A DNA stretch of 64,000 nt from Acrocarpospora phusangensis (GTDB taxonomy: Bacteria > Actinomycetota > Actinomycetes > Streptosporangiales > Streptosporangiaceae): the NCBI RefSeq assembly GCF_016862995.1, contig NZ_BOOA01000002.1, forward strand, positions 1-64,000, in the 5' to 3' direction. Shown here one piece after another: positions 43,341-55,217 of this stretch (position 1 is its first letter; every line of letters starts with the position of its first letter). Below the pieces are notes generated by a model. The model was not told where the DNA came from. It did no database searches and was given only the letters and a program-made list of their open reading frames with translations. The position numbers were made by a program, and so were the translations under genes.

Positions 43341-43613
43341 ATGAGTCACAGCTTGCTCGGCGGCGACCCCGCGGAAATGCAGAGCATGGCCGCGCAGTTC
43401 ACCCAGCAGGCAGACCAGGTCCGGGCGACCATGGCCAACCTCGACCGCGAAGCGGCCAAGGTCGGCACCGTCTGGACCGGCGCCGGAGCACAGCGCTTCA
43501 AGGACTCCTGGCAGAGTTACCGCGCCGCATTCCAGCGCATGTCCGAGGAACTCAACGAGGCGTCCCGGGTGATCAACACCTACCGAGGGAACATCGAGTC
43601 GGCGACCCGCTGA
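43341..43613 (+). CDS. WXG100 family (ESAT-6-like) T7SS protein
   Basis: 90-aa helical-hairpin protein. The turn motif is Trp45-Thr-Gly (VWTGAGAQRF). Two amphipathic helices flank it, with MQSMAAQFTQQADQVRATM before and FKDSWQSYRAAFQRMSEELN after. The length and motif are those of secreted EsxA/EsxB proteins. The C-terminal export signal YxxxD/E is present as YRGNIE. AAGGGA precedes the ATG. It is alone rather than paired, and converges on an EccC-like ATPase gene 428 nt away. Other T7SS parts (EccB, D, E, MycP) are not in the window. Confidence 0.92.
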   Translation: MSHSLLGGDPAEMQSMAAQFTQQADQVRATMANLDREAAKVGTVWTGAGAQRFKDSWQSYRAAFQRMSEELNEASRVINTYRGNIESATR

Positions 43614-44040: not shown

Positions 44041-47000
44041 CTAGATCGGGTTGGGGACGGCGGCGTGGACAGGGGTGGCGGTTCCTGAGACGACCAGGAG
44101 GCCGCGTCCTGGAGGGCCGCCGGTGGCGCCTCGGGGGAGGCGGACGTTGAACAGGTCGCCGTCGGCGGGGCTCTGTACGGACAGCAGGACGCCGGTGCGG
44201 GATTTACGGGCTTCCGCTACGAAGCCGCGGTAAGCGGTGGCCAGGTCTCCCGTCGTTCCGGCGATCAGCAGGGCGTGTTCGCCGTCGCGGGCGGTGCGGT
44301 GGATCTCGTCCAGGGCGGAGCCCAGCGCGGAATCCGGGGAGATCAATTCGGCGTCGTCGACGATTACGACGTATCTGTGCCGTTCTTTGTGGTGATCTTC
44401 TTCTTTGGTGTCGCTCTGATCTTTAATCCGTCCGGTCTGTTCGGCCAGGAGTTTGAGCGGATCGACCGCGCCGGGCAGGCCGCCGAAGCTTTCGCCGCCG
44501 GCGGAGTCGTCGCGGAGGCTGCGGGCGTTGCCGTCCAGGACGGCCAGGACGCCGCGCAGTTCTCGGAGCGGGCTGCGGCGCGGGGTGATGATCAGGACGG
44601 GGACGCCCCGGTCGAGCAGGTCCTGGGCGGCGGTCAGGAGGGTGGAGGAGCGGCCCGATCTGGCCGGTCCTGCGACGATCGCGGCGGGGCCGTGGGCCAG
44701 CAGGTCCAGACCCGAGGGAGCGAGGGCGTCGCCGCCCGCTCCGATCAGAGCCCAGAGGGGGGATGGCGGGGTGAAACCGGGGGACAGGTCCATGACCTGG
44801 GCCGCCGTGATCCGGGTCGGGAGGGCGTCCACCCGCAGCGGCTGCTGGTCCCGGGGTTCCTTCACCGTGCGGGCCAGCGCTTGCAGGGCCGCGACCTGGG
44901 CGGGGCCGGAGGGGTCGTCGGCGAGCAGGGCGATCTGGCTCTCGACCACGCCCTGCTCGGTCATCGCGAGGGCGCGGCCGTTCGGCATGGCAGCGGGCAG
45001 GTTCTTGGCCGGAAGCCCGGCCAGGCCGTAGTCGGCGGGGTCGGCCAGCCGGAGGATCAGACGGTCCTCGAAGACGGTGGAGATCTGGCCGAGCAGACCC
45101 GACCGGTCCGAGGTGACCACGGCGCGCAGCCCCACCGCCGGGCCTTCGCGCAGCAACTGGAGCATCGAGTCGAGCAGGCGGCCGTAGTCGTAGTTCTCGA
45201 AGGCGGCCACGTAGCCTTCCCAGCGGTCGAGCATGAGGATCAGCCAGGGCTCGCGCAGGCCGCCCGCGCGGGCCTCGGCCAGTGAGGCGTAGCCGGCGTC
45301 GGCCAGGACATGCTGGCGGCGGGCCACCTCGGCGCGCAGCCGGGTGAGCAGGCGTTCGACGCGCTCCAACTGGTCGCGGGTGACGACCGCGCCGCAGTGC
45401 GGCAGAGCGACCAGCGGCAGCAGGGCGCCGGAGCCGCAGTCGATCACGTGCAGGTGCACATCGTCGGCGGAGGTGTTGGCGGCGATCGATCCGGCGATCG
45501 TCCGTAGGGCGGTGGATCGTCCGCTTCTGGCGGTGCCGGCGATGAGCAGGTGGCCGGTACCGAGGGCCAGCGGGCGCGTGCGCTGATCCCACGGCAGGTC
45601 GGACAACCCGAACGGGATCTCATCCTGCTGCCCGAGAGCCTGCCGGGAATTCCGCTTGACTCCGCTGGAGCCCTGTCGGGGGGAGTCTTCGTGGAACGCG
45701 CCGAAGGCTTGCTGCGCGGAGTTCTCGTGGCGTGCGCCGAGGGCCTGTCGTGCGTAGTCATCGCGGAACGCACCAGAGGCTTGCCGTGCGGAGCCTTCGT
45801 GGAGCGCGCCGGAGGCGTGCCATGGGGCGTCCTCTCGGGATGCGCCGGACGCTTGCTGTGCGGAGTCTTCGTGGAATGCAGCGGAGGCTTGCCGTGCGGA
45901 GCCTTCGTGGAGTGCGCCGGAGGCGTGCCATGGGGCGTCTTCTCGGGATGCGCCGGACGCTTGCTGTGCGGAGTCTTCGTGGAATGCAGGGGAGGCTTGC
46001 CGTGGGGTGTCTTCGTGGAACGCGCCGGAGGCTTGGCGTGAGGTGTCTTGGAATGTGCCGGACGCTTGCTGGGCGGAGTCTTCGTGGAATGCGCCGGAGG
46101 GCGGTCGTGCGGGGTTCTCCTGGAGCGTGCCGAGGGTGATCTGCTCAGGGAGCGGGGGTAACCAAGGGCTTGGTTGCCGGGGGATGGAGTGGGTGACGGT
46201 GAGGACCTGGTCGACCAGTCTCGCCAGGTCGGTGGTGCCGGAGGTCTCGATGCCGCTCCTGGTGGCCAGCGGGTGGCCGAGCGCTGCCCAGGAGAGGTCG
46301 GTGACTCTCAGTTCGCCGTGGGAGCCCGGGCCGCCGGGGGCACGGCCGCCGATCCGCGCGGCCTGCACGGCGACCGAAGCTCCCGAGCCGGAGCGCACGT
46401 AGCATCGGCCCGGCAAGGTCTTCGGGATGTGTGCGGCTTCGGGGCCGTCGATCACGTCGGCGGACTCCTGGGTGTCGGTGACCCGCAGGGCGATGCGCAG
46501 GGAGGTGTTGGCCTGGATGTCGGCGGTGACGACGCCGGCGGGCCGCTGGGTGGCCAGGACCAGGTGGATGCCCAGTGACCGGCCTCGTCTGGCGATGTCC
46601 ACCAGGCCGTCCACAAAGTCGGGCAGTTCGGCCACCAGGGCGGCGAACTCGTCGATGATCAGTACCAGCCGGGGGAGCGGCGGCAGCTGCGCGCTCGCGG
46701 TCGTCCAGACGGCGCCCGCGCTGGGCCGGTCGAACAGGCCGGTGGCCTTCGCCTGGGTCACGCCGGACGCGCCCAGCACCCAGGTCGTGCCGCGTTCGGC
46801 CGCGTCTCTGGCCTCCAGGTAGTCGTCGATGTCCTTCGCGCCCGCGTTCAGCAGCAGGCGCTCCCTACGGCGGATCTCGGCCGCCAGGGAGGTCAGGGCG
46901 CGCTGGGTGAGGTGGCCGTCCAGGTCGCTGACCATGCCGACGGTGTGCGGGAGGCGTACGCACTCCTTGAAGGCGGCGCCGCCCTTGTAGTCGATCAGGA

Positions 47001-49581
47001 CGAAGGTCATCTCGTCGGGGCGGTTGGCTACGGCCAGCGAGCTGATCATCGTCTGGAGGAGTTCGGACTTGCCCGCGCCGGTGGTTCCGGCGATCAGCGT
47101 GTGCGGGCCGTCCCGGCGCAGATCCACCGCGTACGGACCGTCGGGGCCGACGCCGATCACGGCGCGGGTGTCGCGGCCCGGGGCTTTGCCCAGGTCGATC
47201 AGGTCGAGCAGGCGGGCGGAGCCGGGGAGCGCGGTGGCGGGATCGTCGCGGCTCACGTCGCGGAGTGGGGCCAGGGCGCGGGCCACCCGGTCGGCCCAGC
47301 GGGCGGAGACCTGGTCGGCGCGGATCCGGCCGAGGGCGTCGAGGCCGCCGCCGCGCAGCCGGAGGGTGCCGTCCGCGGCGCAGGAGACGACGGTCGCGCA
47401 CTCCTCGGGGAGCAGGGCTTGGTCGTCGTCGATGGCGATCGTGTAGACGCCCGCGGGTGGACCTTGGCGCAGCACCTGGGGCATGCCGGGCAGGCCGCGC
47501 AGGACCTGGGCGCCGTCGAGGACGACCAGGACGTCGTACGGGCGTTCGTCGTAGGTGCCGAAGGTGGGTTCCGCGGGGCGGGGGGTGCCGCGGCCGAGAT
47601 CGTTCCAGCCGGTGGGGCCGCCGGTGAGCCTGCCGGGGCGCAGAAGAGGGGCGTTCTCCTCGTCCAGGCGTTCGGTGATCAAGGCGGCCAGCTCCGCGAC
47701 GCGGCGGGCGGCGGCGTCGGGGTCGGCGCCGATCAGGGCGACGCTGTCGGTGACGTGGGTTACGCAGTGCGGGAGCCAGCGGACCCAGCTCCACTGGTCG
47801 GCGCCGTCGGGGTGGGCGGTGAGGACGACGACGGCCAGGTCGCGGGGGCTGTGCAGGGTCGCGGCCTGGCCGACCAGCCAGCGGGCGGTGTTGAGCGCGA
47901 CCCTGCGGGGGCCGGTGAGGCCGGCCACACCCAGGCGGCGCATCGCCAGGGCCACGGGGACGTTGCGGGCGGTGGGAATGTCCTTCTGGGGCGGCTCGAA
48001 TTCGATCTCGGCGGGGAGGTCGGCGAGGCCGACCCGGAGACGGAGGGCGTCCTGGTCGTGGGTTCTGCGTTCCCAGAGGCGGCGTCTCGGGCCGGTCGCG
48101 GTGAGGAGGAGTTCGGCGGGGTCGGGGGCGGCGGCGCGGCGGGCCTTCTCGTCCTCGGCGCGGGCGGCTTCGACGCGCCGGGTGAAATCCTCGAGTTCCT
48201 GGCGGTAGTCCTTGAGGGCCTGGCGGTGCTGTTTGCGGCCGTGGCGGCGGTCGCTGATCCACTGGCCGATCATGATCATGGGGGTCATGAAGGCGATCAG
48301 CAGGAAGTACCAGGCTTGGAAGACGATCGCCATGACCAGGCCGAAGACGGCGGGGAGGAACGCCGCGAGGAGTTGGAGGCGCATTCCCTCGGCGCGTTTG
48401 GGCTCCTGGGGGACGGCGAAGGAGATGGTTCGTTCCGGGAGGCGCAGGCGTGGGGGGCGGTTGTAGGCGAGGCCGCCGTCGGGGAGGGCGTCCAGGTGGG
48501 CGTCGGGGGGTTCGATGGGGCCCACCGAGAAGACCGAGTTGCCGCAGGACAGCATCGCGCCCTCGTCCCAGGCGACCGCTTCGTTGACCGCGTTGCCGTC
48601 GAGAATCGGGCCCTTGGATCCGGGCGCGTTGCCCAGGAGGGAACCAGCCGTGCTTCCTCGGCCGGAGCCGGATGTTCCTCGGCTGGATCGGGGCGTGCTT
48701 CCAAGGATGGAGCCAGGTGGGCTTTCTCTGCTGGAACCGGATGCTCCTCGGTTGGATCCGGGCAGGCTTCCAAGGATGGAGCCAGAGGTGCGCCCTCCGC
48801 TGGAATCAGACGTGCCTCGGTTGGATCCGGGCGCGTTTCCTTGGGGGGATCCAAGGTTCGATCCGCTGTCCCGGGTGGATCCGTTCTCTCGGAGGGTGGG
48901 TCCTCGTTCGTCCCTCGAATTCCTAGGAGATTCTTTCCAGAATTCCTCTTCCGCGTCTCGCGAAGGGCCGGGGCGAGCGCTGGATGACCTCGGGGTGCCG
49001 GCGGGATCCGCCGAGGTTCTGAAAGGTGATCTGGATTTCGTCGTCGGGGGGTCGGTCGGGGTTCTGAAGGATGAGCCGGCCTCGATGGTGATTCCGGAGG
49101 GGATGAGGCGGATGATCGCCGCTTCGGTGCCCAGCGTCGGGTCGGGGACGGTGATCGCGCAGGCCGGGTCTGAGCCGATGACGTGGGTGCCCAGGGCCAG
49201 GCGGTGTACGGCGCCTGCTCCTGGGCCGCCGACCACGCGGAGTTCGACCATGCCGGCGGGTTCCTCGATGACGGTGGCCAGCGCGGATCGGCGGTCCAGG
49301 GCGATGCGGTCGCCTTCGCGGAGCAGGCCGAACACGCGGGCCGCGGGGTCCAGGCGCTGGCCGTCGAGCCAGACCTCGGTGTGGCCGGGGTCGGGGGGTT
49401 CGCGGTCCATGCCGTACGGGGCGCGGGCGCGGGGGAGGCGCACGACGTTCGAGGGGCGGGAGTTGGGGCTTTCCAGTGCCCTGGCCAGGGCGGCGACGGT
49501 GGTGCTCTCGTCTCCTTCGACGAGGACGTCGCGGGCGGCGGTGGCCCCGGGGGTTCCGACCACGCTGATCGTTATCCGCAT
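44041..49581 (-). CDS. EccC/EssC-type T7SS FtsK-SpoIIIE ATPase with FHA domain and repeat linkers
   Basis: 1846-aa motor protein. N-terminus (1-105) with ubiquitin-like or FHA-like pattern. An FHA domain (about 112-168 and 326-356) is split by a Ser/Gly/Pro insert (about 172-324). Two TM helices (about 402-438). ATPase 1 has Walker A GTTGAGKSE (~830-838), Walker B LVLIIDEFAA (~973) and a catalytic-type ATQRP. A linker of 13 twelve-residue repeats (about 1150-1305) follows. ATPases 2 and 3 have P-loops GTARSGRST (~1349) and GPARSGRSS (~1633) with Arg for Lys. ATG at 49581 with GGAG; ATG 49593 precedes the SD. Presumably exports the WXG100 protein. Confidence 0.9.
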   Translation of the reverse strand: MRITISVVGTPGATAARDVLVEGDESTTVAALARALESPNSRPSNVVRLPRARAPYGMDREPPDPGHTEVWLDGQRLDPAARVFGLLREGDRIALDRRSALATVIEEPAGMVELRVVGGPGAGAVHRLALGTHVIGSDPACAITVPDPTLGTEAAIIRLIPSGITIEAGSSFRTPTDPPTTKSRSPFRTSADPAGTPRSSSARPGPSRDAEEEFWKESPRNSRDERGPTLRENGSTRDSGSNLGSPQGNAPGSNRGTSDSSGGRTSGSILGSLPGSNRGASGSSRESPPGSILGSTPRSSRGTSGSGRGSTAGSLLGNAPGSKGPILDGNAVNEAVAWDEGAMLSCGNSVFSVGPIEPPDAHLDALPDGGLAYNRPPRLRLPERTISFAVPQEPKRAEGMRLQLLAAFLPAVFGLVMAIVFQAWYFLLIAFMTPMIMIGQWISDRRHGRKQHRQALKDYRQELEDFTRRVEAARAEDEKARRAAAPDPAELLLTATGPRRRLWERRTHDQDALRLRVGLADLPAEIEFEPPQKDIPTARNVPVALAMRRLGVAGLTGPRRVALNTARWLVGQAATLHSPRDLAVVVLTAHPDGADQWSWVRWLPHCVTHVTDSVALIGADPDAAARRVAELAALITERLDEENAPLLRPGRLTGGPTGWNDLGRGTPRPAEPTFGTYDERPYDVLVVLDGAQVLRGLPGMPQVLRQGPPAGVYTIAIDDDQALLPEECATVVSCAADGTLRLRGGGLDALGRIRADQVSARWADRVARALAPLRDVSRDDPATALPGSARLLDLIDLGKAPGRDTRAVIGVGPDGPYAVDLRRDGPHTLIAGTTGAGKSELLQTMISSLAVANRPDEMTFVLIDYKGGAAFKECVRLPHTVGMVSDLDGHLTQRALTSLAAEIRRRERLLLNAGAKDIDDYLEARDAAERGTTWVLGASGVTQAKATGLFDRPSAGAVWTTASAQLPPLPRLVLIIDEFAALVAELPDFVDGLVDIARRGRSLGIHLVLATQRPAGVVTADIQANTSLRIALRVTDTQESADVIDGPEAAHIPKTLPGRCYVRSGSGASVAVQAARIGGRAPGGPGSHGELRVTDLSWAALGHPLATRSGIETSGTTDLARLVDQVLTVTHSIPRQPSPWLPPLPEQITLGTLQENPARPPSGAFHEDSAQQASGTFQDTSRQASGAFHEDTPRQASPAFHEDSAQQASGASREDAPWHASGALHEGSARQASAAFHEDSAQQASGASREDAPWHASGALHEGSARQASGAFRDDYARQALGARHENSAQQAFGAFHEDSPRQGSSGVKRNSRQALGQQDEIPFGLSDLPWDQRTRPLALGTGHLLIAGTARSGRSTALRTIAGSIAANTSADDVHLHVIDCGSGALLPLVALPHCGAVVTRDQLERVERLLTRLRAEVARRQHVLADAGYASLAEARAGGLREPWLILMLDRWEGYVAAFENYDYGRLLDSMLQLLREGPAVGLRAVVTSDRSGLLGQISTVFEDRLILRLADPADYGLAGLPAKNLPAAMPNGRALAMTEQGVVESQIALLADDPSGPAQVAALQALARTVKEPRDQQPLRVDALPTRITAAQVMDLSPGFTPPSPLWALIGAGGDALAPSGLDLLAHGPAAIVAGPARSGRSSTLLTAAQDLLDRGVPVLIITPRRSPLRELRGVLAVLDGNARSLRDDSAGGESFGGLPGAVDPLKLLAEQTGRIKDQSDTKEEDHHKERHRYVVIVDDAELISPDSALGSALDEIHRTARDGEHALLIAGTTGDLATAYRGFVAEARKSRTGVLLSVQSPADGDLFNVRLPRGATGGPPGRGLLVVSGTATPVHAAVPNPI
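45668..46130. repeat. 36-bp coding repeats in eccC (12-aa units)
   Basis: Minus strand codes for about 13 copies of a 12-residue unit, consensus AFHEDSAQQASG with variants ASREDAPWHASG and ALHEGSARQASG. Three units (108 bp) are duplicated in tandem almost exactly. It lies between ATPase domains 1 and 2. Confidence 0.85.
48610..49066. repeat. low-complexity insert inside the eccC FHA domain
   Basis: Minus strand codes for residues about 172-324, Ser/Gly/Pro/Arg-rich, with recurring GSILGS and GSNRG(T/A)S. It separates FHA strands ending RLIPSGITIEAGS from those starting ILDGNAVNEAV. Confidence 0.75.
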
Positions 49582-49681
49582 GTGCGGCTCCAATGCTGGG
49601 GGGCGGGGTCAAGGTACAGAAGCCGCCCTGGGGGCTCTCCTGGTATGCGGATTCGGTAACACGCGAGCCATTGAAGCGGAC

Positions 49682-49863
49682 TGTGGACACGTTCGTGTTG
49701 GGGGTTGTGGATGACTGGGTGGAGCGGTGGATATCTCTGTGGATAACTTCTGACCCTGTGGACAAAGTTGGACCAATCCACCTGCGACCAGCGCATGAAG
49801 TGCTTGTAATCGTTTCGATAAACACGAATCGCATTCATGTTCACTGAACAACCCTGTGGATAA
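49682..49863 (-). other. cluster of DnaA-box-like nonamers
   Basis: All in one orientation (TTATCCACA reads on the minus strand; TGTGGATAA on plus). Exact TGTGGATAA at 49738-49746 and 49855-49863; TGTGGACAA (rc TTGTCCACA, the Streptomyces-type box) at 49757-49765; near matches TGTGGACAC 49682-49690, TGTGGATGA 49706-49714, GGTGGATAT 49726-49734. No dnaA, dnaN or gyrB is near, so this is not the usual oriC. Confidence 0.7.
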
Positions 49864-50102
49864 CTTTGCTTCGTGGGGGCCTGTCCGCGGTCCTGGTGAC
49901 GTCCATGGGTACGCCGATGCCGGTGCTTCGGATCGGTCCCGAAGTTGCCGAGTTCTCCCACCCACCCACCCTTTTGTTCTTCCGGGGCTCCGCCCCTCCG
50001 GTCTGGTCGGCTCCGCCCTTCCCGGCTTGCCCTTCCGGGCTCCGGTCCTCGCGCCTTCCGGCTCCGCCCTCCCAGCCTTCCGGCTTGCCCTTCTGGGCTC
50101 CG

Positions 50103-50181
50103 CGCTCCGCGCCCTCTGGGCACTGCCTCTCCCGCGCCCTGCGCTCCGCGCCCTCGGGGCACCGCCTCTCCCGCGCCCTGC
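50103..50181. repeat. 39-bp tandem repeat, about two copies
   Basis: GGGCAYYGCCTCTCCCGCGC... starts at 50118 and again at 50157 (period 39), including CCCTGCGCTCCGC. It runs directly into the heptamer array. Confidence 0.65.
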
Positions 50182-50383
50182 GCTCCGCACTCCGCACTCC
50201 GCACTCGCACTCCAGGCTCCGCGCTCCGCACTCCAGGCTCCGCGCTCCGCATTCCGCGCTCCGCATTCCAGGCTCCGCATTCCAGGCTCCGCGCTCTGCA
50301 TTCCGCGCTCCGGGCTCCGGGCTCCGCATTCCGCGCTCCAGGCTTCGGGCTCCGCGTTCCAGACTCCGCGCACCAGGCTTCGG
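50182..50383. repeat. 29-copy heptanucleotide tandem array
   Basis: Units of seven bases: GCTCCGC, ACTCCGC, ACTCCAG, ATTCCGC, ATTCCAG, GCTCCGG, consensus (G/A)(C/T)TCC(G/A)(C/G). 29 units fill 202 bp with a single 1-bp deletion (unit 4). A 7-bp period shifts through all codon frames, so it is not a protein repeat by design. Confidence 0.9.
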
Positions 50384-50466
50384 GCCATCTGGCTTCGTGC
50401 CTTCCGGTTCCACCTCTTCCGCGCTTCGGGTTGCGGGCTTCGCCTCCTCCGGGCGCTGCCCCACCC

Positions 50467-50506
50467 GATCCGCGCCTCCCGATCCGCGCCTCCCGATCCG
50501 CGCCTC
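50467..50506. repeat. 14-bp tandem repeat, about three copies
   Basis: GATCCGCGCCTCCC at 50467-50480 and 50481-50494, then GATCCGCGCCTC to 50506. Two heptamers (GATCCGC + GCCTCCC) per unit, so it keeps the 7-bp register. Confidence 0.8.
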
Positions 50507-51186
50507 GCGCCTTCGCGCTTGGCCCTTCGTGTTTCGTCCCATGCCGTGGTGGCCGTTGCAGGGGCTGTGGATGCATTCCGCTCCTGCTGGAGAGCCGGGC
50601 TCTTGCTTCCCCCTCCTGGTTCCATGGCGCCTTGCCGGGCGGCTCGTTTGGTCGGGGTTGTGTACTTGCTTCTGCTTTCGGCGTTGGCGGGGTGCCCGCC
50701 CTTTGATTCGCTGACGCGAAACCGCCGACAACAGGGCGGCCTGGAGGCTATCCGCACTATGCGCAGGTTGCGCCGTGCCCAGGTTGTGGCCAATTCGGTC
50801 AATTGTCGTGTCATTAGTCATATGTCCCGGCTTGGCAGGTCGGGGGGTGCGGACCGAACAACGCAGATCGCAAGCGGCCGGGGCGGCGAGAAAAGACGCC
50901 AGCCCCTGGTTGGGCGGGCTCCCGCGCCACAAGTCCGGACATGAGCGCAGCCCCGATTGAACGCACCCGGCTGGTTCGGCGTAGCAACCAGTGAAGGCGT
51001 GGGAACGGTCGAAGTCGGGGATCGGCTGGGCGCGCATGGATGGTCGAGCGTTCCAGGGGGCGGGTGCGTGGGACGAGTAGGGGCATATGGCTCCGTCGCG
51101 TGGGGGCGAGGGGTGGGTGGGAGGGGGCCACCCCCGGGCATTCCTCATCTGGCGATCTCCACAATGAAGCCACGGCAACAAGTTTT

Positions 51187-51378: not shown

Positions 51379-51532
51379 TGGGTCCCTCGTTTTGGGAATC
51401 AGTGCCGGTCGGTGATGTCCATAATGGCGTGAAATTTCGCGCGAATCCGAAAATGTTTTGATCGGCCCTCCTCGTGATCATGTGGCTTTGTGCCGCGTGC
51501 GCGTGGACTTGGACTCTGGGAGCCCCCCACCC

Positions 51533-52228
51533 ATGAGGATCAGCGAGAAGCCCGCCCGCGAGAGCCGTACCGGCCCGGTGGAACGATCTGGCCTGTCCGG
51601 ACCCGCCGCGCGGAAACTGCCGGTGCCGCCACGCGAGCGCAAGCCTGCCCTCGCGGCGCTGGCCGTGCTCCTCATCCTGGGCGGAGCGCTGGCGACCACG
51701 CTGCTGGTGCTGCGCAGCGGCGACCGCGTCTCGGCCGTACGGATCATCGAGCAGGTGGGCGCGGGCGAGAAGATCCCGGCGTCCGCGCTGCAGGAGGTGC
51801 AGATCGCCGAAACCGGGATCGACTACGTCGCCTGGCGCTTCCGGGACCGCGTGCTCACCACCTACGCGTCGGTGACCCTGCTGCCGGGCACCCTGCTCAC
51901 CGAGAACATGACCAGCACCGAGAGCGAGCAGCTCGGCCCAGGCAAGGCGCAGGTCGGACTCGCCCTGAAATCGGGGCAGGCGCCCGTCGGGCTCACCAAG
52001 GGCGACATCGTCCAGGTGATCTACGTGCCCGCCGCGGGGCGCGGCGCCACCGCCGCCTCCCAGCAGCGCATCCTCGCCCAGAACGCCCTCGTGCACAGCG
52101 TCGGCGCGCCCGGCCGCGCCGCCACCGGCCTGGTCACCGTGATCGTGGACACCGCGGTCTCACCCACCGTCGCGCAGTACGCCTCCAGCGGCGAGATCGC
52201 CCTGGCCGTGCTTCCCGGGGCACGGTAG
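51533..52228 (+). CDS. SAF domain (CpaB/RcpC-like) pilus assembly protein
   Basis: 231-aa protein. A cytoplasmic Pro/Arg-rich N-terminus, one TM helix (about residues 38-60, ALAALAVLLILGGALATTLL), then an extracellular SAF domain with VGAGEKIPASALQEVQIA and LPGTLLTENMTS, typical of CpaB/RcpC. A second part (QVGLALKSGQAPVGLTKGDI) continues the fold. ATG at 51533 follows GGGAG at 10 nt; the longer frame to 51458 has no SD. It opens the tad operon: the next ATG is 3 nt after its stop. Confidence 0.85.
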   Translation: MRISEKPARESRTGPVERSGLSGPAARKLPVPPRERKPALAALAVLLILGGALATTLLVLRSGDRVSAVRIIEQVGAGEKIPASALQEVQIAETGIDYVAWRFRDRVLTTYASVTLLPGTLLTENMTSTESEQLGPGKAQVGLALKSGQAPVGLTKGDIVQVIYVPAAGRGATAASQQRILAQNALVHSVGAPGRAATGLVTVIVDTAVSPTVAQYASSGEIALAVLPGAR

Positions 52229-52231
52229 CGA

Positions 52232-53020
52232 ATGGCACTGATCGTCCTGGCCGCCGACAAGGGGGCCCCGGGAGTGACCACCGCCGCGACGGCACTCGGC
52301 GCGGTGTGGCCGAGGCCCGTGCTGCTGGCCGAATGCGACCCGTCCGGAGGTGATCTCGCCTACCGCCTGCCGGCCGCCGACGGCGGCGTGCTCAATCCGG
52401 GCCGCGGCCTGCTCAGCCTGGGCGCGGTGGCCCGCCGCGGCATGCACGCCGAGCAGGTGTACGAGCACACCCAGAAGCTGGTCGGCGGCCTGGACGTGCT
52501 GGCCGGGCTCACCAACGCGGAACAGGCCGCCGGCCTGACCTGGCTGTGGAGCCCGCTCGGGCGCTCGCTGGCCGCGCTGCCGCACACCGACGTGCTGGCG
52601 GACTGCGGCCGGCTGGGCGCACACCCGGCCGTCAACGACCTGCTGGCGGAGGCGGACCAGATCGTGCTGTTCACCCGGGCCAGCCTCGACCACGTGGCCC
52701 ACCTGCGGGAGCGGCTCACGCTGCTCAAACAGCAGGTGGGGGTGGTGGTGATCGCCGACCCCAGGGCGTACAGGTCAGAGCTGGACGAAGTCCGGCGGAT
52801 CGTGTCGGGCTGGGACGTCGCGTTCGTCGGCGGTCTCGCGTACGACCCGAAGGGAGCCGAGCTGCTGCGCGGCCAGTGGGGTGGGCGGCTGGACCGCAGC
52901 ATGCTGATCAGGACCGCGCGGGAGCTGGCCGGCCGCCTGGCCGGGCGGGTGGCTGAGGCCGAGCCACGCCGGGTCAACGGGCGGCCGATCGTGCCGGGGC
53001 CCCGCGAGGAGAGCCCATGA
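52232..53020 (+). CDS. CpaE/TadZ-like ParA-MinD family protein with altered P-loop
   Basis: 262-aa SIMIBI-type NTPase fold. The P-loop region is ADKGAPGVTTAATALG; a normal deviant Walker A is KGGxGKTT, so the first Lys is kept but the P-loop Lys is Val. ECDPSGGDLAYRLP matches the switch region of MinD-like proteins and VVVIADPRAYRSELDEV the later part. In Tad systems TadZ/CpaE places the secretion machine at its cellular site. With this loop, ATP hydrolysis is doubtful and a scaffold role likelier. It overlaps cpaF by 4 nt. Confidence 0.85.
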   Translation: MALIVLAADKGAPGVTTAATALGAVWPRPVLLAECDPSGGDLAYRLPAADGGVLNPGRGLLSLGAVARRGMHAEQVYEHTQKLVGGLDVLAGLTNAEQAAGLTWLWSPLGRSLAALPHTDVLADCGRLGAHPAVNDLLAEADQIVLFTRASLDHVAHLRERLTLLKQQVGVVVIADPRAYRSELDEVRRIVSGWDVAFVGGLAYDPKGAELLRGQWGGRLDRSMLIRTARELAGRLAGRVAEAEPRRVNGRPIVPGPREESP

Positions 53021-54315
53021 ACATCGACCACACCCTGGTGAAACGCTTCCGGCAGGAGGTCGGCGACCGGCTCGCCCACCAGCGCAGGCTGGACCAGGCC
53101 AGCGGCCTGCTGCCGATGAGCGGCGAGGACGAGCGGCAGTTCGCGCGGGCGCTGATCGCGCAGGTGCTGGAGGAGTTCGCGCGCAGCGAGATCGGCGTGG
53201 GCCGCACCCCGCCGAGCGCGGAAGAGGAGGAGGCGCTCGCCGCCGGCATCCACGCGGCGCTGTTCGGCGTCGGCCGGCTCCAGCCGCTGCTGGACGACCC
53301 CGAAGTCGAGAACATCGACATCAACGGCTGCGACCGCGTCTTCGTCGGGTACGCGGACGGTCAGGAGCTCACCCACGAGCCGGTCGCCGAATCCGACGAG
53401 GAGCTGATCGAGCTCATCCAGATCCTCGCCGCCTACTCCGGCCTGTCCTCCCGCCCGTTCGACACCGCCAATCCGCAGCTGGACCTGCGCCTCCCGGACG
53501 GCTCACGCCTCTCGGCCGTGATGGACGTCACGGTGCGCCCCGCGATCTCGATCCGCCGGGCCCGGCTGGGCAAGGTCTTCGTCAGCGACCTGGTCGGCAA
53601 CGGCACGCTCACGCCCGAGCTGGGCCGGTTCCTCTCGGCCGCCGTCTCGGCCAGGAAGAACATCATGATCGCCGGGTCCACCAACGCCGGGAAGACCACC
53701 CTGCTGCGCGCGGTGGCCAACGAGATCGCCCCGGTGGAGCGCCTGATCACGGTGGAGCGCGCCCTGGAACTCGGCCTCGACCAGTTCCCCGAGCTGCACC
53801 CCAACGTGGTCGCGTTCGAGCAGCGGCTGCCCAACTCCGAGGGCCAGGGCGAGATCAGCATGGCCGAACTGGTCCGCCGCTCGCTGCGGATGAACCCGTC
53901 CCGCGTGATCGTCGGCGAGGTGCTCGGCGACGAGATCGTCACCATGCTCAACGCGATGACCCAGGGCAATGACGGCTCGCTGTCCACGATCCACGCGAAC
54001 TCCTCGATCGAGGTCTTCAACCGCATCGCCACGTACGCCCTGCAGGCCGAGGAGCGCCTCCCCATCGAGGCCAGCCACATGCTCATCGCGGGCGCCATCG
54101 ACTTCGTCGTCTTCATCGAGAAACGCAATGACTACCACCGGGGCGGGCGGTTGCGCCGTTTCGTCTCCTCGGTGCGCGAGGTGGCCGGCTGCGACGGCCG
54201 GGTGCTCTCCTCGGAGATCTTCATCGCCACCGACAACGGCTCCGTCGTCCCGCACGCCCCCATCGCGTGCATCGAGGAACTGGCCGAACACGGCTACGAA
54301 GGAGCCTGGTCATGA
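53017..54315 (+). CDS. Tad/Flp pilus secretion ATPase (CpaF/TadA)
   Basis: 432-aa type II/IV secretion ATPase. An N-terminal helical domain (about 1-100), then LQPLLDDPEVENIDINGCDRV, the Walker A GSTNAGKTTLLRA, Asp box VERLITVERALEL, Walker B SRVIVGEVLGDEI and His box DGSLSTIHANSS. It powers pilin polymerisation at the cytoplasmic face with TadB/TadC. ATGA overlaps both neighbours. Lacks nothing expected for an active enzyme. Confidence 0.95.
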   Translation: MNIDHTLVKRFRQEVGDRLAHQRRLDQASGLLPMSGEDERQFARALIAQVLEEFARSEIGVGRTPPSAEEEEALAAGIHAALFGVGRLQPLLDDPEVENIDINGCDRVFVGYADGQELTHEPVAESDEELIELIQILAAYSGLSSRPFDTANPQLDLRLPDGSRLSAVMDVTVRPAISIRRARLGKVFVSDLVGNGTLTPELGRFLSAAVSARKNIMIAGSTNAGKTTLLRAVANEIAPVERLITVERALELGLDQFPELHPNVVAFEQRLPNSEGQGEISMAELVRRSLRMNPSRVIVGEVLGDEIVTMLNAMTQGNDGSLSTIHANSSIEVFNRIATYALQAEERLPIEASHMLIAGAIDFVVFIEKRNDYHRGGRLRRFVSSVREVAGCDGRVLSSEIFIATDNGSVVPHAPIACIEELAEHGYEGAWS

Positions 54316-55217
54316 TCCCACCCGGCCTCCTCGACCCGCTCGTGCTGATCTCCGGCGCCGCCATCGGCGGCGGCCTCTTCCTCCTCGCCCTCGCCCTGTA
54401 CGGCAGGCCGCCCCGCCCCGCGGGCCCCGACGGCACCGCCCGCCGGATGGAACTGCTGCGCACGCTCTCCACCAGGACCGCGGTCGCCGTGATCACGGCA
54501 GCCGTCGTCCTCGTGCTGACCGGCTGGCCCGTCGTCGCCGTCGGCTCGGCCCTGCTCGTGATGGCCTGGCGCGGCCTCACCGGCGGCGCCGCCGAGGAAC
54601 GCGGCTCGATGCGCCGCCTGGAGGGCCTGGCCGCCTGGACCGAGTCGCTCCGCGACACCATCGCGGGCGCCGCCGGCCTGGAGCAGGCGATCCCCGTCTC
54701 CATCCGGGCCGCCGCCCCCAGTCTGCGCCCGCACCTGCGCGCCCTGGTCGACCGCATGCACACCCGGATGGCGCTCTCCGACGCGCTCCGCATGTTCGCC
54801 GACGAACTCGACGACCCCTCCGCGGACCTGGTCGTCGCCGCGCTGATCCTCAACTCCAAGCTGCGCGGACCCGGCCTGCGGGACGTGCTCTCCGCGCTGG
54901 CCCTGTCCGCCCGCGAGGAGCTGGACATGCGCCGCCGGGTCGAGGCGGAACGGCGCGCCACCCGGCGCAGCGTGCAGATCGTGGTCGGCACCGCCCTCAC
55001 CTTCGCGGCCTTCCTCGTGATCTTCAATCGGTCGTACGTGCAGGAGTACAACTCGCTGCTCGGCCAGGCCGTACTCATCGTGGTCGCGGCCCTGTTCGGC
55101 GCGGGATTCGCGTGGATGCGGCGGCTCGCCCGATTCGACCAGCCGGCCCGGATCCTCGCGCCGTACCGCAGGCCGGATGTCGCCGCCAGGCCCGAGGAAG
55201 CCGAGGTGCCCTCATGA
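54312..55217 (+). CDS. Tad pilus inner-membrane platform protein TadB
   Basis: 301-aa T2SS GspF-domain protein. TM helices near residues 10-30 and 55-85. The F domain (about 100-230) has LEGLAAWTESLRDTIAGAAGLEQAI and ALSDALRMFADELDDPSADLV. Two C-terminal TMs (about 235-280) complete the TadB layout. Start ATG 54312 overlaps the cpaF stop (ATGA). Forms the platform on which CpaF acts, together with TadC. Confidence 0.9.
   Translation: MIPPGLLDPLVLISGAAIGGGLFLLALALYGRPPRPAGPDGTARRMELLRTLSTRTAVAVITAAVVLVLTGWPVVAVGSALLVMAWRGLTGGAAEERGSMRRLEGLAAWTESLRDTIAGAAGLEQAIPVSIRAAAPSLRPHLRALVDRMHTRMALSDALRMFADELDDPSADLVVAALILNSKLRGPGLRDVLSALALSAREELDMRRRVEAERRATRRSVQIVVGTALTFAAFLVIFNRSYVQEYNSLLGQAVLIVVAALFGAGFAWMRRLARFDQPARILAPYRRPDVAARPEEAEVPS

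Follow-up and report, generated by a model that had tools for sequence, protein, structure and literature searches.

The 64,000-nucleotide stretch of Acrocarpospora phusangensis DNA analysed here (hereafter the window) carries an array of three DnaA boxes, all facing one way, upstream of an ATPase gene that resembles those of type VII secretion systems (T7SS). Relatives keep its fixed arrangement, so the array is probably a real DnaA switch or sponge and not a chance match. We put at about 0.5 the probability that it is a genuine DnaA-binding element outside the replication origin (oriC), serving mainly as a DnaA sink or inactivation site. It has the features of an extra-oriC DnaA-box cluster, namely several close boxes in non-coding DNA outside oriC, and as a candidate site it is a well conserved, new addition to the known clusters of this kind.

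All boxes of the array lie on the minus strand. Box 1 (TTATCCACA, exact; 49855–49863), found by pattern scan, occupies a position kept in 4/4 Acrocarpospora arrays, the present one counted. A minus-strand spacer of 89 bp (49766–49854) separates it from box 2 (TTGTCCACA, exact; 49757–49765), which lies 98 bp from box 1, and box 3 (TTATCCACA, exact; 49738–49746) follows at 19 bp from box 2. The spacer lies in a local AT-rich dip, with a GC content of 0.50 in the 150 bp at 49700–49849. Three near boxes continue the array on the same strand. The first, ATATCCACC (49726–49734; 12 bp from box 3), was read by eye and has two mismatches, and an identical or similar near box stands at this place in L028, L029, L104, L034, L037 and the Herbidospora loci. 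The second, TCATCCACA (49706–49714; one mismatch), is the same in L028, L029 and L034, and the third, GTGTCCACA (49682–49690; one mismatch), is the same in L028 and L029. The six minus-strand boxes described by an initial annotation of this DNA are all present, three of them exact, two with one mismatch and one with two.

The gene downstream of the boxes is a 1,850-codon open frame (44041–49581, minus strand; start set at MRITISVVG) with a match to PF01580, encoding an EssC/EccC-like FtsK/SpoIIIE ATPase, and the boxes point in the direction of this gene. Its scores fall below the curated equivalog cut-offs for EssC/EccC, at 475 bits against 778.4 for TIGR03928, 371 against 509.15 for TIGR03924 and 285.4 against 346.55 for TIGR03925. 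The ATPase therefore looks like a T7SS EssC/EccC protein without a formal assignment as one, and the T7SS ATPase named by the initial annotation stands as a resemblance, given the strong EssC/EccC matches and a WXG100 (ESAT-6-like) gene past the 3′ end of the ATPase gene (43341–43613, plus strand), but not at the level of the curated cut-offs. On the other side of the array, divergent Tad-pilus-like genes (51458–55217, plus strand) include a TadA-like T2SSE ATPase and a T2SSF protein. Pfam gave no match for the first two genes of this set, which we take to be Tad genes, the second of them CpaE-like. A −10-like TACCTT, read by eye, precedes the ATPase gene (49611–49616, minus strand); a TA-N3-T match stands at about the same position both in loci with boxes and in the box-less Spongiactinospora and Nonomuraea loci, and is not evident in Microbispora. 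Two repetitive stretches were also seen: the middle of the ATPase frame (45550–46140) carries a run of near-identical FHEDSAQQASGA-like repeats, and the DNA between the array and the Tad genes (49960–50510) consists of C-rich, low-complexity GCTCCGC/CACTCC-like repeats with strong negative GC skew and AT skew.

Conservation upstream of the ATPase gene in relatives, which the initial annotation had proposed as a check, is substantial. A scan with the ATPase yielded 80 named loci, of which 77 were examined upstream (L064, L075 and L095 were excluded), with upstream sequence of only 472 and 626 bp for L055 and L087. The array is kept in 34/77 orthologue loci as three one-way boxes pointing with the gene. 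Of the TT[AGT]TCCACA sites in the 77 loci, 84 fall in the 500 bp upstream of the ATPase gene (38.0 kb in total) and 19 in the other 1.30 Mb; all 19, at −832 to −1,123, are part of a displaced array in six Sphaerisporangium loci. These counts are not independent, since the 77 loci are versions of a single neighbourhood shared by related species. In 28 loci, two or more forward boxes lie within 500 bp of the ATPase gene. In the displaced form, found in six of the eight Sphaerisporangium loci, the array sits at about −810 to −1,120 from the ATPase gene and is separated from it by a lipoprotein-type ORF (PF03640, run on L050 only), and the −10-like site still lies directly before the gene.

The array is far from universal, being absent from 42/77 loci, with L027 too short upstream to judge. 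Array-less loci include those of Microbispora, four Planotetraspora orthologues, Microtetraspora, Spongiactinospora, Nonomuraea and Actinomadura. None of the ten orthologue loci in Microbispora has a box within 1.2 kb, and a looser pattern finds none there either; all ten retain the divergent Tad-type gene. Presence of the array is strongly clustered on a tree of the ATPase (80 rows), where the label requires 5 changes against a shuffle mean of about 26; the rows labelled "no" include L027, L075 and L095, which were not assessable upstream, and L064 was left out. Across the family, the strict three-box geometry was found in 31/341 genomes, once in each, with none for the reversed control, and many of these 31 are the same strains as among the ATPase loci; one of the 31, G332, is not represented by a locus. 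All 16 Streptosporangium genomes have it, and in a class-wide sample it was found in 7/394 genomes, all seven of them Streptosporangiaceae. A looser two-box pattern matched at least 155/341 family genomes (control 0); since the matches listed take in other loci as well as oriC-like stretches, a pair of boxes is not by itself diagnostic.

The geometry within the array is tight. Boxes 2 and 3 are 19 bp apart in 24/24 loci where each of them fits TT[AGT]TCCACA; the ten remaining array loci have lost one of the two or have it in altered form. Across the 34 loci, the distance between the starts of boxes 1 and 2 is 97–102 bp in 23 and 88–92 bp in nine, with single loci at 80 bp and 291 bp, where for eight loci without box 2 (Herbidospora, NEAU-GS5 and Planotetraspora A-T 1434 among them) the position of box 3 minus 19 was used. 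A periodicity score for the spacer lengths reaches 0.675 at 10 bp, little above the 0.631 at 9 bp and 0.639 at 11 bp, so that helical phasing of boxes 1 and 2 is only suggestive. The spacer itself is poorly conserved across genera, with a pairwise identity of 0.43 over 30 arrays. Box identities over the same 30 arrays are biased upward, because the selection pattern fixes 8/9 box positions; the box count over the 77 loci is the freer of the two measures, yet it too is box-based. Within Streptosporangium, the spacer has an AT-rich core, GCCCATTAAGAACGGCATAAC, that is exact in L195, L196 and L199 and recurs in recognisably altered form in most of the 12 remaining arrays, while the boxes read TTTTCCACA (13/15), TTGTCCACA (11/15) and TTTTCCACA (15/15) for boxes 1, 2 and 3, respectively. 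Depending on the locus, the distance from box 3 to the ATPase start is anywhere between about 92 and about 950 bp. It is nearly constant in Streptosporangium, Planomonospora and Planobispora, where box 3 lies 92–108 bp upstream of the start aligned with the query frame, and it is not constant across genera.

These features suggest how the array might work as a sink. DnaA would occupy three high-quality boxes whose spacing, about 100 bp and 19 bp, is nearly fixed, with the weaker near boxes alongside them in Acrocarpospora, and a single DnaA nucleoprotein complex would form across the intervening DNA. Once the replication fork has copied the array, the array would take up or inactivate DnaA and so restrain re-initiation, a role already proposed for datA in Escherichia coli and for clusters in Bacillus subtilis and Streptomyces coelicolor. 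We prefer a sink because the array holds together as a unit, while its distance to the ATPase gene drifts and another gene can intervene, and because the −10-like site is also found in the box-less Spongiactinospora and Nonomuraea loci. Against a free-standing sink counts the fact that the array is seen only in this gene neighbourhood. That the array is a predicted DnaA-binding cluster outside oriC draws good support from its conservation and from the boxes it has in common with oriC. The DnaA-titrating, datA-like locus proposed by the initial annotation is the best supported of its three readings; its activity is a prediction from sequence.

The position of the array on the chromosome is compatible with such a role and may have a simpler explanation. 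In the 10 of 31 array genomes in which both lie on one contig, the array is 1.04–1.40 Mb from dnaA, or 12.4–16.2% of the genome, and is oriented so that the ATPase gene points towards dnaA in all ten. In two of the genomes, G318 and G321, the side of the array relative to dnaA is flipped and the ATPase gene still points towards dnaA. In a further genome, G016, the ATPase gene lies 0.96 Mb from dnaA (15.9%), a figure for the gene irrespective of the array. Given this similar distance, synteny alone may account for the constant position of the array relative to oriC.

Several known systems resemble the array in part. The DnaA-box clusters of Streptomyces coelicolor are likewise non-oriC and actinobacterial (Smulczyk-Krawczyszyn et al. 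2006, as summarised in passages of PMC5742627 and PMC10950094), and one such cluster is reported there to repress untimely initiation. Nothing marks the two as the same locus, and the array differs in consisting of three one-way boxes beside a T7SS-like ATPase gene in several genera. In the same two reviews, the clusters of Bacillus subtilis and of S. coelicolor are presented as analogues of datA. As described in portions of PMC4585315 and PMC5295017, datA of Escherichia coli is, like the array, non-coding, with several boxes whose spacing is kept while the spacer drifts. It also keeps a conserved relative distance from oriC, a possible likeness that for the array, at 12–16% of the genome from dnaA, is confounded by synteny. 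The spacing around an IHF site matters for datA (a section of PMC4585315), which requires this site between its boxes 2 and 3, whereas none is demonstrated in the array spacer. We liken the array to datA by layout and position, not by sequence or neighbourhood homology. The clusters of B. subtilis, like the array, lie outside oriC; in the relevant part of PMC5295017 the joint removal of all six leads to early initiation, and the same review states that these clusters play no significant role in initiation. By comparison with six clusters that are judged individually minor, Acrocarpospora has one array of strict geometry and one further conserved cluster.

The array is a site with precise limits and evolutionary support that some sister genera naturally lack, and its strong conservation makes it testable. 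It allows one to ask whether sporangium-forming actinomycetes have a datA-like sink, and whether T7SS or Tad genes are under DnaA control. To our knowledge, little work has addressed how such actinobacteria control the initiation of replication. A search of the open-access literature found nothing joining DnaA boxes, a promoter and type VII secretion, and nothing joining DnaA boxes and the tad pilus; for DnaA boxes together with Streptosporangium, only work on Kutzneria surfaced.

A possible but less probable explanation is that the array is a DnaA-dependent control region that activates or represses the T7SS-like ATPase gene, the divergent Tad operon or both, which would couple surface structures to the replication state. 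In every locus whose neighbours were inspected, the array adjoins the same ATPase gene, and the loci read have a divergent Tad-type gene opposite; the agreement in direction between boxes and gene and the 92–108 bp between box 3 and the start in Streptosporangium, Planomonospora and Planobispora point the same way. So do two further sites, a second cluster just 3′ of a T2SSF (TadC-like) gene, another Tad-type locus, in Acrocarpospora and in Herbidospora (locus L269), and a third exact triple of boxes upstream of an SSB-family gene. It is the observed confinement of the array to one neighbourhood, together with the second cluster in a Tad-type locus, that makes gene control a serious rival. There is precedent as well, in that DnaA of B. 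subtilis regulates some genes (in the part of PMC4447404 that treats them); at DnaA-regulated promoters such as sda and others, intergenic boxes occur with promoters, as the boxes of the array do with a putative one. Unlike at those promoters, the distance from array to gene is not constant, reaching nearly 1 kb with another gene between, and regulation at the array is putative. Gene control also sits poorly with the −10-like site that persists in the box-less Spongiactinospora and Nonomuraea loci, and with the ten Microbispora loci that keep the divergent gene and have no box in 1.2 kb. The DnaA-regulated eccC promoter envisaged by the initial annotation has in its favour that the array lies beside the same ATPase gene, and it falters where the gene is kept without boxes or with the array nearly 1 kb away. 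A sink and gene control may both be true, by analogy with Bacillus.

A broader possibility, which we consider doubtful, is that the array represents one actinobacterial DnaA module, with three one-way boxes and an AT-rich core in several genera, paired in Acrocarpospora with the second cluster, both in Tad/T7SS loci, and with a spacer that may step by about one helical turn. If this were true, DnaA availability and replication timing would be tied to the expression of surface secretion and pilus genes in the life cycle.

We regard it as improbable that a protein other than DnaA recognises TTNTCCACA at the array. The TTNTCCACA motif is the standard DnaA box. The array boxes are of the −CCACA form and mostly G-flanked, and −CCCCA forms abound in the oriC stretches sampled from relatives (71 of 114 boxes counted over 20 stretches, with TTCTCCACA at 4), which could hint at a different ligand; this contrast is partly built in, since the array boxes were selected as −CCACA. 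The same TTNTCCACA nonamers also occur at the oriC of these genera. Summed over the 20 stretches, TTTTCCACA occurs 17 times, TTGTCCACA 14 times and TTATCCACA 8 times, and the number of counted boxes per stretch runs from one to nine. The comparison of the array nonamers with oriC that the initial annotation had suggested, made here on the oriC stretches of relatives, finds them in both places.

That the array is a secondary or acquired replication origin, the third reading of the initial annotation, is very improbable. One-way boxes and an AT-rich dip are what might suggest it, the dip having a GC content of 0.50 over 150 bp compared with 0.56–0.62 over 600 bp in the sampled oriC stretches. 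No replication gene was found by Pfam/NCBIfam among the 11 of 47 predicted window genes checked, as the initial annotation had noted for the surroundings, and the array is inherited in one fixed gene neighbourhood. The array lies on contig C2, and the only Bac_DnaA match in the genome is on contig C9, so the array is beside no known dnaA, and neither dnaN nor another initiator gene was seen among the 11 genes. The box-rich stretch that directly follows dnaA on C9, as a normal oriC would, is taken as oriC.

Chance level was assessed over the window and the genome. With up to one mismatch, the window has 11 box matches against a shuffle mean of 7.81, and 14 of 100 shuffles reach 11; this count is unremarkable, so the case for the boxes rests on their local clustering. 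The 9.11-Mb genome contains 75 exact matches to TTRTCCACA and 15 to the reversed pattern. The genome-wide nonamer scan, advanced by the initial annotation as a way to expose equally dense clusters at many places, finds at least three exact boxes per 200 bp at three places only, which are the window array, C4:175154–175245 and C55:50842–50919. When 75 points were placed uniformly at random 2000 times, no triple fell within 200 bp. Adjacent pairs of boxes no more than 200 bp apart number 15 genome-wide against a random mean of 0.107, so close pairs are far above chance and two boxes together are not rare in the A. phusangensis genome. Chance clustering, which has the ordinary window-wide count in its favour, is rejected as next to impossible in view of the conserved geometry of the array, the zero counts in the controls and the random placements without a triple. 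A coding cause is unlikely although the boxes fall within long minus-strand ORFs, since the boxes are kept while the spacer is poorly conserved across genera. A search of the 64-kb window against Rfam at gathering thresholds gave no match, and so no known RNA.

Predicted extra-oriC DnaA-box clusters recur in Streptosporangiaceae at places that differ between genera, as indicated by the distinct sites of the C4-type, C55 and g58 clusters. The second cluster of A. phusangensis (C4:175154–175257) has four boxes in two orientations. The other four Acrocarpospora genomes conserve it, one of them lacking a single box. A pattern of this type matches 13/341 family genomes in three genera (control 0), including all seven Herbidospora genomes and two of another genus. 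The triple on C55 (50842–50919) consists of three exact boxes directly upstream of the SSB-family gene. Seven loci of genus g58 (L258–L261 and L274–L276) carry three to five boxes between a dnaN-type and a DUF2786 gene, as identified by Pfam on one of each gene, and in four g58 genomes among the matches listed the cluster lies about 124–175 kb from oriC-like matches. Also among the matches listed, L265, L266 and L271 (genera g37, g39 and g38) each have a pair of boxes about 110–120 bp apart that adjoins an fpg-like DNA glycosylase gene (Pfam on L265 only). Finally, head-to-head pairs 12–13 bp apart, of the form TTATCCACA..TGTGGA[TC]AA, make short palindromes at C12:27027, C23:40447 and C147:560.
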